Made by a program: the position numbers and the translations under genes | Notes under the pieces: generated by a model | The model's database searches: none | What the model was told of the DNA's origin: nothing | Seen by the model: the letters and a program-made list of their open reading frames with translations, nothing else | Shown: in pieces, positions 15,427-20,061 of the stretch | Layout of the letters: each line of letters opens with the position of its first letter | Position numbering within the stretch: position 1 is the first letter of the stretch | Assembly (NCBI RefSeq): GCF_024436435.1 | Contig: NZ_JAFMZP010000002.1 | Location: 1 to 64,000 of the forward strand | Source: Desertivirga xinjiangensis | GTDB taxonomy: Bacteria; Bacteroidota; Bacteroidia; Sphingobacteriales; Sphingobacteriaceae | Direction of reading: 5' to 3' | Length of the DNA: 64,000 nucleotides

Positions 15427-17010
15427 ATGAGACTTAGACCCTTATTAGCAGTTATTATCTTTATAACGTTTTCTTGTAAGAAATCAGAGAATAAGCCAGA
15501 AAACAAGCGCGATCCTGAAATCCTGATCACTGAGCTGACTACTAGCCTAAGCTCAGCCGATAGTATTAGTGATTTCACCAGCGCACTTAAAAATGTAAAT
15601 TTAAGCAATGAAGAAACGGCGGAAGGGATTACCGTGTTTGCACCCTTAGATGATTTAGATAACGTTTCTAATACCTTTAATAAGTTCCAGACCAGCAAGG
15701 GCTCCCCAGAGGCGACGACAATGGAAACAGAAACTCCTGCTGGGTTTTCAGATGCAGTGATAAGAGACCACGTTGTTAAAGGGGTATATAAGTTGGCAGA
15801 TCTGACCGATGGCAAGATGCTTACAGGGCTTAATGGAAAGCAGTTAAGAATTTCCAGGATTGGCGATAATTTATGGATTAACAACATAGCTATTGGCGGA
15901 AAAGAAATTGTTTCTAATACCAACCAGGTGGTCTATGTTGTAAAAGTAAGTTTAGAGAATACCTCAGCGGTAATTGCCCGGAGATTTACTGAAATGGAAT
16001 ATCCTATTGCTCTTGCCGAAATTAAAACAAGTCTTTCTGACTGGCATGAAAAACTGGTTGTATTAGATGCCCTTATAAGCCATGATGTAGAACTTGAGTC
16101 TATTCCTCAATCTTATAGGAATGTTTATCGGGATATCGATAACTTTCGATTCGATGCAAGCCATCAGGCTATTTTGAACGTATGGCGTGAGGGCTATAAT
16201 ACTATCACGAGAGTAAATGCAGTGGAAGCAAAGTTGCCCGAATTACTTTCTGATTCGCGTGAGAAACATGCTCAGTTAAAAGCGATGCGAGCTTATGTGT
16301 ATTTGCAATTGTTAACTTATTACGAAAATATTCCTCTAAAAACATCAAATGCTGTTCCATGGGTAGAAAGCAATACAAATCGTCCAGCAGTTTTCAGGTA
16401 TATTACAGAACAACTACAATCAGCAGCAAGATCAATTACTGAAAATACGTCAGATCGAACTCTGATAAATAAAACTTCGATAAAAATACTTCAGGCGAAA
16501 GCCGCATTGCTTGAAAAGGATTATCAAAAAGTTTTGGACTTTACCAATCAGGTGATTAATTCTAACAAGTACGCACTGGAAGCACCTGATCAAATCTTTT
16601 CAACTAACAGGGAAATGATCTGGGAGGACTCGGCTGAGAAGAGCACAAATATAAAGAGCTATTTCTGGAATCGTGACAAGTTACCTTATTTGAGGTTAAC
16701 TGAAGTCTATCTGATGAATATTGAGGCTAATCTTGCTTTGCAAAATCCTGTTGCTGCGCAGGCAACATACTCTGTACTGATGCAAAGAAAGGGGATACAA
16801 GCACCGGATGTTAATATGAATATCCTGAGGGAAACCTGGACCAGTGAAATGGAGAGGGAAGGAAGTTTGTTCCCCAATTTACTAAGATGGGGTACGGCTG
16901 CAGACATGTTAGCTCCCAAAGGATTTATTGAATCAAAGCACAGAAGGTTGCCTATACCTCAGGCTGAACGAGAGCTTAACAGGAACTTGGTTCAAAACAC
17001 TCTATATTGA
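15427..17010 (+). CDS. FAS1-SusD fusion lipoprotein
   Basis: A 527-residue lipoprotein (lipobox FITFSC, C17) that joins two domains not usually found together. Residues about 30-175 match a fasciclin/FAS1 fold: GITVFAPLDDL, then VIRDHVVKGVYKLADL and NGKQLRI, then NQVVYVVKVSL. Residues about 185-527 look like a shortened SusD/RagB helical domain: KAMRAYVYLQLLTYYENIPL, KLPYLRLTEVYLMNIEANLA, and the classical ending LPIPQAERELNRNLVQN. SusD proteins cap a SusC transporter and hold glycans, but no SusC gene is next to it, and both neighbours are unrelated. It may act with a SusC elsewhere or as a stand-alone adhesin. Confidence 0.8.
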   Translation: MRLRPLLAVIIFITFSCKKSENKPENKRDPEILITELTTSLSSADSISDFTSALKNVNLSNEETAEGITVFAPLDDLDNVSNTFNKFQTSKGSPEATTMETETPAGFSDAVIRDHVVKGVYKLADLTDGKMLTGLNGKQLRISRIGDNLWINNIAIGGKEIVSNTNQVVYVVKVSLENTSAVIARRFTEMEYPIALAEIKTSLSDWHEKLVVLDALISHDVELESIPQSYRNVYRDIDNFRFDASHQAILNVWREGYNTITRVNAVEAKLPELLSDSREKHAQLKAMRAYVYLQLLTYYENIPLKTSNAVPWVESNTNRPAVFRYITEQLQSAARSITENTSDRTLINKTSIKILQAKAALLEKDYQKVLDFTNQVINSNKYALEAPDQIFSTNREMIWEDSAEKSTNIKSYFWNRDKLPYLRLTEVYLMNIEANLALQNPVAAQATYSVLMQRKGIQAPDVNMNILRETWTSEMEREGSLFPNLLRWGTAADMLAPKGFIESKHRRLPIPQAERELNRNLVQNTLY

Positions 17011-17052: not shown

Positions 17053-18534
17053 TTAGCTGGAAGCAGGAAGTGAAAAGTAAAAGCAGCTACCTTTATTCAG
17101 GGTGCTGCTTACAAAAATCCTGCTTTGATGTTGTTTTATTATGTTATGAATAATGTATAGACCCAGGCCAAGTCCTGTTGCTTTGTTGTTGTTTTTGGTA
17201 TCACTCACCCGATAGTACTTTTCAAAGATCTGTTCTAGTTTATCTTCTGGAATACCTGCCCCATAATCGCGTACCTCAAATTTTATAAGCTTTTCATTTT
17301 CACTTCTTATTAGTGACACCTCCACCTGATCTGCATTCGGTGAATATTTGATGGCATTACTTATTAAGTTGATGATCACCTGCATTATCCTTTGCCGATC
17401 AGCATAAACCAGGTACAGGTTATGAAGATCCATGTTTTTTATAACAGTGTGGGTGGGATAGCTTGTAGACAACAGCTCAACAGCTTCTTCCACTACTTCC
17501 TTCATTGAAAAAGAACTAAGATTGAGAGATAGTTGACCTGAATCAATTTTAGAAACGTCTAATAAGGTTGAAACCAGGAATTGCAAGGAATTTAAGGATG
17601 TGTTAGCACGCGACAAGAAGCTGTTTGCAGCAGAAGGTAATGACATCCTTTGAAGGATCTGGTTATATGCTTTTAAACTGGTGATGGGAGTTTTTAACTC
17701 ATGACTTGCTATATTAATAAACTCGTCTCTTTTTTGTATAGATAAAACCTGAGCATCGATATTTGTACAGGACCCTATCCATCGTGCGGCTGTGCCGTTT
17801 TCTTCCATATAAACAGCTGCTTTAATTAAATGCCACTCATATGCTCCAGAATGATTTTCGAGACGGATTTCAACGGTAAAGGTGCTGCCCGTCTGGATGC
17901 TGTTTATCCAAATTCGCAGTAGTTTTAATCGATCGCGGGGGTATACTTTTAACAGTGCTTCCTTAGTGGAGAACTGCAGGGTATTGAAGTATTGATAATA
18001 TCGTTTGTTGACATAATCAATATCTCCATTACTGTTTGCAGTCCATATGATCTCAGGATTAAAATCTGAAAGGAACTCAAAGCGCTTCCGTTCTGCGTCT
18101 GCTTTTTCCTTTGCTAGGAGCAGTTCCTGTTCGTACATTTTCCTTTCTCTTACATCATAGAGAGTTGCATTGATTGCCTGTACCCTCCCTTCAGTGGTTT
18201 TGCTGGCAACGGCACTTAAAAAAACAGGAAAGGTGCCTTTGTCTTTCTTTATAATATCATAACTAAGCTGATTGACTAATCCATTGGCGCTGATAAGGGG
18301 CCTGAAAAACATTTCGAAGTGTAAAGCGCCGCCCTTGGTGATTAAATCCGTAAACTTCTTTTTATACAGAATTTCGTCATATGCGTATCCAAGCCAATTG
18401 GCTAAAGTCTTATTCACTTTAATTATAGTTCCATCAGGCAAGAAGGACAGATATCCACAAGGAGCGTTCTGATACAGGTCTTCCGGATCGATCAGTGTAT
18501 CTAAAAGCTTTTTGTCAATATCGTTATAACTCAA
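17053..18534 (-). CDS. PAS sensor histidine kinase paired with an RsbQ-like hydrolase
   Basis: A 493-residue soluble histidine kinase. PAS 1 covers residues about 15-135 (NAPCGYLSFLPDGTIIKVN, NWLGYAYDEILY) and PAS 2 about 148-265. HisKA carries H278 in IASHELKTPITSL, and the ATPase domain has NLISNAIKYSPNAD, DYGAGI and TGLGLGLYIIHNI. The gene starts 6 bases after the stop of the RsbQ-like hydrolase gene, so they form one operon. In Bacillus subtilis RsbQ activates the PAS phosphatase RsbP encoded beside it; here a kinase takes the place of the phosphatase. A PAS-bound hydrolysis product as the signal is inference by that analogy. The lone receiver at 19702 is upstream on the same strand. Confidence 0.92.
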   Translation of the reverse strand: MSYNDIDKKLLDTLIDPEDLYQNAPCGYLSFLPDGTIIKVNKTLANWLGYAYDEILYKKKFTDLITKGGALHFEMFFRPLISANGLVNQLSYDIIKKDKGTFPVFLSAVASKTTEGRVQAINATLYDVRERKMYEQELLLAKEKADAERKRFEFLSDFNPEIIWTANSNGDIDYVNKRYYQYFNTLQFSTKEALLKVYPRDRLKLLRIWINSIQTGSTFTVEIRLENHSGAYEWHLIKAAVYMEENGTAARWIGSCTNIDAQVLSIQKRDEFINIASHELKTPITSLKAYNQILQRMSLPSAANSFLSRANTSLNSLQFLVSTLLDVSKIDSGQLSLNLSSFSMKEVVEEAVELLSTSYPTHTVIKNMDLHNLYLVYADRQRIMQVIINLISNAIKYSPNADQVEVSLIRSENEKLIKFEVRDYGAGIPEDKLEQIFEKYYRVSDTKNNNKATGLGLGLYIIHNIIKQHQSRIFVSSTLNKGSCFYFSLPASS

Positions 18535-18540
18535 TTTTCC

Positions 18541-19335
18541 TTAATTTAAAAATGCCTTTATTGCAGCGATAGTCTCTTGTGGGTGACTAATATGCGGGCA
18601 ATGGCCGCTGGCCTCCATTATATGCAATTTATTTAACGGAGTGTTTTCCAGAATGTAGGATCCAATATTAAGGGGTGCAATAATGTCGTCATTACATTGC
18701 AGAGTCAGACTTTCAACTTTAAGATTTTGCAAGTCTTTGCGATTATCGGAAAAGAAGGTCACCCTGGCAAATTCTCGTGCTATGTCAGGATTGGTTGAAC
18801 AAAAACTACTGGTTAAAAATTCACCAAGCTCTGGTCTGTCCGGATTTCCCATTATAGCCGGTGCAAGCTGGCTAGACCATCCCAAATAGTTTGAGTCCAT
18901 AAACTCAAAAAGGGCTTCCAGATCGGCCTTTTCAAATCCACCATGGTAATTTTCATCGTTCAAATATCTTGGGGAGGGACCTACAAAAACAAGCTTATTA
19001 AAGAACGAAGGCTGTTCTATGGCAGCAAGCAGCCCAATCATACTACTGACTGAATGGCCAACAAGGATCGTATTATTCAGTTTTAGTTCGTCGCACACTT
19101 CAAGAATGTCTTGTGCATAGCCTTCCAGCCGACCGTACCTGGAAGAGCTGTAAGCTGAGAGATCAGATTTTCCGGCACCTACATAATCAAAAAGCACGAG
19201 TTTGTAATCGTCTTTAAAAGCATCAGTGACAAACTGCCAGGAATTTTGATCACATCCAAATCCATGGGCAAAAAGCATTACTTTTTCGCCATTACCTACT
19301 ACCTTAACGTTATTTCTGTTTGATATTGAATTCAT
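18541..19335 (-). CDS. rsbQ: RsbQ/KAI2/D14-type alpha/beta hydrolase
   Basis: A 264-residue alpha/beta hydrolase closely following Bacillus subtilis RsbQ as I recall it: HGFGCDQNSW in the oxyanion region, LFDYVGAGKSDL, the nucleophile in LVGHSVSSMIG (S95), LVFVGPSPRYLND, the acid in CNDDIIAP (D216/D217) and the histidine in SGHCPHISHP (H245). The length is that of RsbQ and of the plant KAI2/D14 receptors. These proteins cleave a small hydrophobic ligand slowly and pass the information to a partner. Here the partner should be the PAS kinase that follows 6 bases downstream. No Rsb-type phosphatase or anti-sigma factor is nearby. Confidence 0.9.
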   Translation of the reverse strand: MNSISNRNNVKVVGNGEKVMLFAHGFGCDQNSWQFVTDAFKDDYKLVLFDYVGAGKSDLSAYSSSRYGRLEGYAQDILEVCDELKLNNTILVGHSVSSMIGLLAAIEQPSFFNKLVFVGPSPRYLNDENYHGGFEKADLEALFEFMDSNYLGWSSQLAPAIMGNPDRPELGEFLTSSFCSTNPDIAREFARVTFFSDNRKDLQNLKVESLTLQCNDDIIAPLNIGSYILENTPLNKLHIMEASGHCPHISHPQETIAAIKAFLN

Positions 19336-19348
19336 ATATTATAAAGAA

Positions 19349-19615
19349 TTAGTCTATAAGGGATAAAAGAGAAATGCTTTTTTCAGTAAAGAGTTTAAAC
19401 GAGGTCTCTACTATCAGGCAGTCCATCCTTTCATTTAAAAGCCATACTCCAGTTGGGATTAAACCGTTCATTAATAGTGTGTACACTAAAATAAATAACA
19501 TAGTAGAACGCCATATACGATATCCTGGAATATTGGGTAAACTCAGCATGAGAACAATCTTCACAATTTTTTGTTTGACATAATTGTCGATGTTTTCAAT
19601 TGTGTAAAGTCCCAT
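19349..19615 (-). CDS. possible 88-residue membrane protein upstream of the RsbQ-like gene
   Basis: An open frame on the same strand as the RsbQ-PAS kinase pair, ending 13 bases before it. It has one likely membrane segment (STMLFILVYTLLMNGLI) and no known motif. The overlapping plus-strand frame at 19374-19583 is equally unremarkable. Spacing and orientation favour the minus-strand reading, but nothing else supports it. It may be non-coding. Confidence 0.3.
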   Translation of the reverse strand: MGLYTIENIDNYVKQKIVKIVLMLSLPNIPGYRIWRSTMLFILVYTLLMNGLIPTGVWLLNERMDCLIVETSFKLFTEKSISLLSLID

Positions 19616-19701
19616 ATGGTTTTGCTGATAGAGTTTGTTTATCAGCCTGCAAAGCTAAGAATAGAACGCTATATCAGAAATAGGGAAGAGCTTCCCTAGC
19701 C

Positions 19702-20061
19702 TTAGAACTTCATAACAATTTCTTCTATCTCTGAAATATCAAACGGCTTCTCTACATAACCATCAGCAAACGATTTCCTCGCAATCTCGGCGAGACCTTC
19801 GGTGCCTGATACCAGGATAACGGGCACTCGCCTTAACTGGTTTATTGACTTCAAAATAATGCAGAGATCACTGCCTTTAACCCCAATGAGCCATTCATCC
19901 AGAATTATGAGGTCGGGGGCAATATTTATGATCTCCTGGATGGTTTCCGACTTCCAGGTCGGGAAAGTGTATGTTTCGCATCCCAACTCATTAACTACCA
20001 GTTGCATCACCTCAAGTATCGATACATCGTCGTCTATTATCAAAACTTTTTTTCTTTTCAT
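19702..20061 (-). CDS. single-domain response regulator (receiver only)
   Basis: A 119-residue CheY-like receiver with no output domain. The acidic pocket is D10-D12 (IIDDDVS), the phosphoacceptor is D55 in LIILDEWLIG, the switch residue is S85 in VILVSGT, and the conserved lysine is K105 in YVEKPFD. Without an output domain it must act by protein contact or relay phosphate. It lies upstream of the RsbQ-like hydrolase and PAS kinase on the same strand, about 370 bases away, so it is a fair candidate partner for that kinase. Both soluble kinases in this part of the window lack a fused receiver. Confidence 0.92.
   Translation of the reverse strand: MKRKKVLIIDDDVSILEVMQLVVNELGCETYTFPTWKSETIQEIINIAPDLIILDEWLIGVKGSDLCIILKSINQLRRVPVILVSGTEGLAEIARKSFADGYVEKPFDISEIEEIVMKF

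Follow-up and report, generated by a model that had tools for sequence, protein, structure and literature searches.

An RsbQ-family hydrolase paired with a two-PAS histidine kinase in Desertivirga xinjiangensis, and a possible parallel KAI2-type module in Sphingobacteriaceae

What does an RsbQ-type alpha/beta hydrolase do when the gene directly downstream encodes a histidine kinase with two PAS domains? The question is raised by a locus of the soil bacterium Desertivirga xinjiangensis (Bacteroidota; Sphingobacteriaceae) that lies within the first 64,000 nucleotides of contig NZ_JAFMZP010000002.1, the stretch analyzed here and referred to as the window. An earlier note, made from the sequence alone, had read the two genes as an RsbQ ligand-sensing module rewired to two-component signalling. 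Wiring of this kind is in print: Nadezhdin, Brody and Price described in 2011 a set of 45 RsbQ and RsbP-PAS neighbours, in which the output domain is PPM, a histidine kinase (in Gram-negatives), or a diguanylate cyclase (PMC3183031). Thus, the reading given in the earlier note is correct in kind and is the best one, but it is not new. The word ‘Bacteroidetes’ is absent from the available text of the same paper, the species in its figures aside, and the window pair is a well-supported Bacteroidota addition, with a two-PAS kinase, to the published class of RsbQ-PAS kinases. The features discussed below are collected in Table 1.

Table 1. Features of the locus in the window (positions on the forward strand) and, in the last two rows, loci of the second module described in the text.
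Feature	Position	Strand	Basis or remark
Sensor histidine kinase, 493 aa, TTG start	17053..18534	-	ORF, Pfam
HATPase_c kinase domain	17062..17400	-	residues 379-491
HisKA, dimerisation and phosphoacceptor domain	17536..17730	-	residues 269-333
Second PAS domain	17770..18084	-	PAS_8/PAS_3, residues 151-255
First PAS domain, RsbP-PAS type, presumed hydrolase docking site	18145..18459	-	PAS_9, residues 26-130; aligned with B. subtilis RsbP
RsbQ-family alpha/beta hydrolase, 264 aa	18541..19335	-	ORF, PDB match, alignment, predicted fold
Hydrolase triad	S95 = 19051-19053; D217 = 18685-18687; H245 = 18601-18603	-	
Decayed BLUF photoreceptor remnant	19352..19514	-	overlaps 88-aa ORF 19349-19615
Terminator-like hairpin directly after receiver	19681..19698	-	weak
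Stand-alone receiver, 119 aa, candidate target	19702..20061	-	Response_reg, E 6.2e-14
KAI2-type hydrolase and NTD partner, L089	3801-6260		
Other NTD-pair loci: L081, L090, L091, L093, L097, L099, L104, L105, L110, L114, L115, L117, L120, L127			

The hydrolase belongs to the RsbQ family by full-length similarity and by its S-D-H triad. Its best relative in the PDB is RsbQ of B. subtilis (1wom; E 1.3e-96, residues 1-263), and the three triad columns hold S, D, and H in all 104 aligned sequences (96 collected hydrolases and eight PDB sequences), including the triad of the window. The hydrolase part of an AlphaFold2 model, described below, superposes on 1wom with a TMt of 0.95, and phylogenetic trees place the protein in the RsbQ half, among PAS-partnered hydrolases, with B. 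subtilis RsbQ on the same side. The Pfam matches are all to generic Abhydrolase families, as would suit an everyday esterase of metabolism or detoxification that happens to share a transcript with a sensor kinase to which it has no functional tie; against such an enzyme, the models for BioH and PcaD score far under their cut-offs on this sequence. We return to this explanation once the conservation of the pair has been described.

The hydrolase gene ends in a TAA stop, and the kinase gene follows after a 6-bp gap in the same reading frame. The open reading frames, the Pfam domains, and the 1wom match bear out the description of a triad-bearing RsbQ homolog placed directly before a two-PAS histidine kinase. 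The partner also has the layout of the 2011 class: a PAS protein sits immediately downstream of the hydrolase, this PAS is the most N-terminal domain, and the output is one of the three named for the class (PPM, histidine kinase, or GGDEF), namely HisKA plus HATPase_c. Pfam finds no PPM domain in the 493 residues of the partner, which sets it apart from the sigma-B energy-stress output of RsbP. The second PAS domain is not without parallel, as the 2011 set holds five proteins with extra PAS domains, counted among the exceptions to a coiled-coil linker (PMC3183031).

At the residue level, the first PAS domain (PAS1) resembles the RsbP-PAS class with some departures. For the alignment, the reference sequence is one that we take to be B. 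subtilis RsbP, and its nine class positions agree with the numbering in the 2011 paper. The window PAS1 is identical at C10, L13, and P86, and it also keeps the conserved P62; similar residues replace L48 (by I), F55 (by H), and Y59 (by F). At C56 it has F, a position where Y or F occurs in 60 of the 66 PAS domains of the collected set. It departs at Q53 (A) and at E72 (Q), and these departures count against docking as in RsbP. The E72 position is E in 63 of the 66 domains; the three with Q include the window and its two relatives L021 and L022. A methods passage of PMC3183031 lists E72A with the null substitutions. A search for hydrolase residues that covary with E72Q was dropped, since the only ones to stand out (N2, S65, F111, and Q156) are too few to use. 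The 2011 set is described as lacking the DIT motif at the PAS end (PMC3183031). The window has DVR at this position, and D[IV][TS] occurs in 18 of 66 relatives; thus, absence of DIT is not defining for the collected set.

How widely is the pair kept? A profile of the RsbQ family was run against whole genomes in three overlapping samples, with matches in 60 of the 251 genomes that represent the family (E ≤ 1e-60), 16 of 395 genomes of the class (E ≤ 1e-55), and 22 of 395 genomes of the phylum (E ≤ 1e-60). These loci were pooled with a further set, and merging hydrolases with identical last 255 residues reduced 115 sequences to 111, all but three of which (L034, L035, and L037) come from Bacteroidota, i.e., 108. 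An RsbP-type PAS partner lies directly downstream of 66 of the 111: 51 are PAS kinases (PAS-HK), 10 carry PAS with a lone DHp, three carry PAS and GGDEF, and two carry a PAS whose protein end is not seen. Another 15 have a partner with a different N-terminal domain, or NTD (12 NTD-HK, two NTD-DHp, and one cut short), and none was found for the remaining 30, which include L151, at a contig end, and the orphan L118, where a kinase without an RsbP-type PAS begins 404 bp downstream of the hydrolase. Conversely, when a profile of the RsbP-type PAS was run on the 251 family genomes and places were compared by eye, 33 of 37 matches adjoined a listed hydrolase; inspection of the other four loci (L157-L160) found no hydrolase beside them. 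The earlier note had named a survey of Bacteroidota as its check, and the pair proves to be conserved well beyond this genome.

Plasmids add to this picture. Among 72,556 plasmid records, 74 match the window hydrolase at E ≤ 1e-30, and the 30 listed share 53-59% identity with it, more than the 38-42% that the 30 matches listed for a KAI2-like query share with the KAI2-like query. In each of the four records opened (from Pelagibacterium, Neorhizobium, Bradyrhizobium, and Hymenobacter, the last of these a member of Bacteroidota), a PAS kinase gene overlaps the hydrolase frame by 1-8 bp; in the Pelagibacterium plasmid, the hydrolase frame is shortened at the 5' end and carries no annotation. A search of viral contigs with query A1 found no relatives. 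As a separate observation, RsbQ-type hydrolases occur on plasmids of Bradyrhizobium, Neorhizobium, Rhizobium, and Sinorhizobium, several of them from root nodules, and both opened rhizobial records have the overlapping kinase genes.

Recurrence in many genomes shows that the pairing is not due to chance. The hydrolase is paired with one type of PAS domain in Actinomycetota and Pseudomonadota as well as in Bacteroidota, although the output domains vary, a pattern at odds with an esterase that merely shares a transcript with its neighbour. The one further point in favour of such an esterase is a clade of RsbQ-type hydrolases that have no PAS partner beside them, so that an RsbQ-type hydrolase can do without a neighbouring one. 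This clade, like the four PAS matches that lack a hydrolase neighbour, also counts against the RsbQ-PAS reading. On balance, we regard the esterase explanation as highly improbable. The unpartnered clade has 12 rows in the clustered tree, all with an intact triad (L065, L075, L079, L080, L094, L101, L109, L111, L112, L116, L118, and L122); other neighbours are common to many loci of the unpartnered class (17 loci). A further variation was seen in the PAS partners of L064, L070, L073, L074, L078, L082, L087, L098, L100, and L107, which end in a lone DHp-like region with no ATPase domain. In those of the sequences that were inspected, L or M, not E, was found after the histidine, and such an output is absent from the three in the 2011 list.

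Taken together, the two genes probably make up a signalling pair of the RsbQ-PAS kind whose output is a histidine kinase; the hydrolase would be the receptor half and dock on the first PAS domain. The hydrolase would act in the cytoplasm, where a small molecule, probably of the lactone or ester type, would enter the S-D-H pocket, and its slow turnover of this ligand could serve as a timer. Docking would take place on PAS1 of the kinase dimer, close to the F-alpha helix, as it does in RsbP of B. subtilis, and this contact would shift the kinase between on and off states; phosphate would then pass to a receiver, perhaps the one just upstream. Both the contact with PAS1 and the need for the triad are carried over, by analogy, from genetic and two-hybrid work on B. 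subtilis, in which the PAS domain was reported to be necessary and sufficient for interaction with RsbQ in yeast (PMC3183031). The direction in which the kinase responds, like the target of its phosphate, is something that we infer. In a predicted AlphaFold2 model of the in-frame read-through fusion of hydrolase and PAS1 (mean pLDDT 91.2), a helix follows PAS1, and no interface is resolved; in the full-length kinase, the second PAS sits between PAS1 and the output. The pTM of 0.64 is about what we estimate for two unlinked domains of such size, so the model is silent on the contact. Hence, it was rejected as evidence for or against docking.

A different mode of action would also explain the pairing, in that the hydrolase could make a small molecule and hand it to the first PAS domain, which would be the true sensor. 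The invariance of the triad throughout the aligned set fits a product-making enzyme. Against it, KAI2 and D14 are known receptors and are close structural kin of the hydrolase. Both models, hydrolase as receptor and hydrolase as supplier of a PAS ligand, are in print, the latter as Model 1 of PMC3183031; that the authors of this paper knew of no cofactor of RsbP counts against the supplier model. The data of this analysis do not decide between the two. We consider delivery of a product the less probable arrangement, albeit one to be taken seriously, and lean modestly toward a receptor role. No conserved neighbours that would hint at the ligand were found beyond receivers, kinases, and, in two loci, a BLUF gene.

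The neighbourhood upstream of the receptor-kinase pair bears on its output. The lone receiver that the earlier note had pointed to is confirmed by its Pfam match and is a plausible candidate target of the kinase. A receiver-bearing gene is the next upstream gene on the same strand in seven of the 51 PAS-HK rows (L024, L030, L032, L058, L071, L129, and L135; rows L136 and L148 are garbled), which makes the window receiver a reasonable target, whereas the hairpin directly after it counts against this assignment. The hairpin itself is weak evidence, with four such sites found between positions 16900 and 20200 against 2.1 expected by chance. Elsewhere in the window, positions 15427-17010 encode a single protein in which SusD-like regions come after a fasciclin domain.

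Between receiver and hydrolase lies the decayed BLUF gene. It consists of three collinear pieces (residues 1-10, 83-99, and 106-124) in two frames, with most of the middle missing, and was found by tblastn with the BLUF proteins of L021 and L022 (E 1e-5 in 1000 bases; none of 300 shuffles scored as well). These two loci, from Pedobacter sp. SYSU D00535 (L021) and Desertivirga arenae (L022), are the nearest relatives of the window. In both, an intact BLUF gene precedes the hydrolase by 7-8 bp, at 5600-5992 in L021 (Pfam 9.9e-28) and 5595-5987 in L022 (8.8e-29), and a large kinase plus a receiver lie downstream of the pair. Limited searches found no printed account of a BLUF gene upstream of the pair or of its loss.

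This arrangement raises the question of whether the pair once belonged to a BLUF-controlled light-signalling circuit, of which the window would be a survivor that has lost its photoreceptor. An intact BLUF upstream with a large PAS kinase and a receiver downstream in the two relatives, together with the remnant in the same slot of the window, speaks for such an origin, and a response of RsbP and RsbQ to both red and blue light is reported for B. subtilis (PMC10403212). The same source, however, reports that blue light still affected the reporter when rsbP or rsbQ was mutated (PMC10403212). Furthermore, a profile built from the two BLUF sequences matched L021 and L022 alone among the listed loci, so the BLUF gene looks like an addition in one genus. 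We therefore consider a light-signalling origin unlikely, somewhat less so than the esterase explanation.

The earlier note had also linked the hydrolase to strigolactone and karrikin receptors. The link holds for the family as a whole, but not for the window hydrolase; the residues that mark these receptors are carried by another bacterial group. Nineteen of the 111 hydrolases form a separate group on the side of plant KAI2/D14. For instance, L013 (the same gene as in L089) scores 244.7 bits against a moss KAI2-like protein and 193.3 against RsbQ, whereas the window hydrolase reverses the order, with 204.5 and 326.3 bits, respectively. At twenty alignment positions, the KAI2-side group agrees with the plant proteins in a residue that the RsbQ group seldom has. 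A score of ten residues picked from these 20 is descriptive rather than an independent test, having been found on the same sequences; it is 9-10 in all 15 NTD-partnered hydrolases, 7-10 in four group members without an adjacent partner, 8-10 in six plant-type sequences (one of them a reconstruction), and 0-1 in all 66 PAS-partnered hydrolases, including all 51 PAS-HK. The window hydrolase has none of the ten.

Phylogenetic trees agree with this division. The first tree held 96 rows, after clustering of the 111 at 88% and removal of the partial L151; two further trees, of 62 and 45 rows, included only a selection from the RsbQ half (34 and 21 rows, respectively). In the 45-row tree, whose root is not placed, the RsbQ group forms one side of a 100/100 branch with the window opposite KAI2/D14, and in the 62-row tree, the plants and the KAI2-side group are held together at 99/100. 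The sequence of 7ukb, an ancestral reconstruction by its record title, was counted as a plant in the earlier alignments and trees and left out of the 45-row tree. Both the residues and this branch led us to reject the window hydrolase as a KAI2 relative proper. A nesting of plants inside the bacterial KAI2-like group, suggested by supports of 96/89 (62-row) and 95/83 (45-row), was not adopted, as AU tests of the same split from both sides do not reject a tree in which the bacterial sequences stay in one group (p 0.202 and 0.193). Rooting with three distant hydrolases failed, giving branches of length 10.

The partners of the two groups are as distinct as the hydrolases. Fifteen KAI2-type hydrolases are paired with an NTD of about 165 residues borne by kinases or lone-DHp proteins, and partner types never mix with hydrolase types (15 NTD pairs versus 66 PAS pairs). 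Since a single branch separates the two partner types, this match may reflect one evolutionary event, not 81. No Pfam family matched the NTD stretch in the proteins scanned, and a PDB profile search with the NTD gave no convincing match, with a single one at chance level (E 0.016). An assignment of the NTD to GAF, which came from our own pattern reading, was not retained; hhalign against a one-sequence GAF profile gave a weak P of 0.012, the best of six. In the L089 partner (820 aa), the NTD is followed by a PAS domain with a weak match and then by HisKA, HATPase, and two receivers, and in L018 and L020 the partner (about 500 aa) comprises the NTD, PAS domains, and a lone DHp.

An NTD profile matched 18 places in 16 of the 251 family genomes, 15 of which adjoin a listed KAI2-like hydrolase. 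The other three are L161, with a hydrolase fragment near a contig end; a contig fragment (G464:C353); and a place in the window’s own genome (L156, contig C22, 5660-7485). There, the KAI2-like hydrolase frame is only 112 aa: its start and end match relatives, and the central part that would carry S95 and D217 is absent, while the 493-aa NTD-PAS-DHp partner beside it is open. This deletion could be an assembly error.

These observations suggest that Sphingobacteriaceae may hold two parallel receptor-kinase systems of common origin, a proposal that we judge about evenly poised. The KAI2-type system would have its own docking domain, feed hybrid kinases or lone phosphotransfer domains, and be a bacterial counterpart of the plant karrikin/strigolactone receptor; the window’s genome would have lost the middle of its hydrolase and kept the partner. 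Limited literature searches did not find bacterial KAI2-type operons with an NTD partner in the titles or abstracts listed. Wang et al. 2022, cited for the transfer of KAI2 from bacterial RsbQ (PMC9828678, PMC10504578), may already show the KAI2-type bacterial group, which is the main doubt about its novelty. The value added by this study lies in the KAI2-type module and the lost BLUF gene.

If the proposal is true, perception of the KAI2 type already served as a signalling receptor before plants or outside them, and the bacterial ligand may help to find the unknown KAI2 ligand. The different partner domains, kept without exception in the sample within one family, offer natural pairs for mapping how receptors pass on binding. 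The window pair itself is a Bacteroidota two-PAS kinase member of a sensing module, and its wider value is comparative.

Among the closest known systems is RsbQ-RsbP of B. subtilis, with a hydrolase 54% identical to that of the window and with the same fold, triad, and gene order; the output domain of RsbP, however, is a terminal PPM phosphatase that acts on the sigma-B pathway, unlike the HisKA-HATPase end of the window partner. The RsbQ-PAS histidine kinase modules of the 2011 set share with the window a hydrolase directly upstream, an RsbP-type PAS as the first domain, and kinase output in Gram-negatives, but the window kinase differs in its second PAS and in the residues at the E72 and DIT positions. 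The KAI2-like pairs of Sphingobacteriaceae likewise have a hydrolase followed by a signalling protein within a few bp or overlapping, although the hydrolase is of KAI2 type and the partner starts with the unnamed domain instead of the RsbP-type PAS. Finally, plant KAI2/D14 have the triad and fold of the window hydrolase (TMt 0.91-0.96, with 31-39% identity among 50 matches listed), whereas the window protein lacks the ten scored residues and stands on the opposite side of the fully supported branch.
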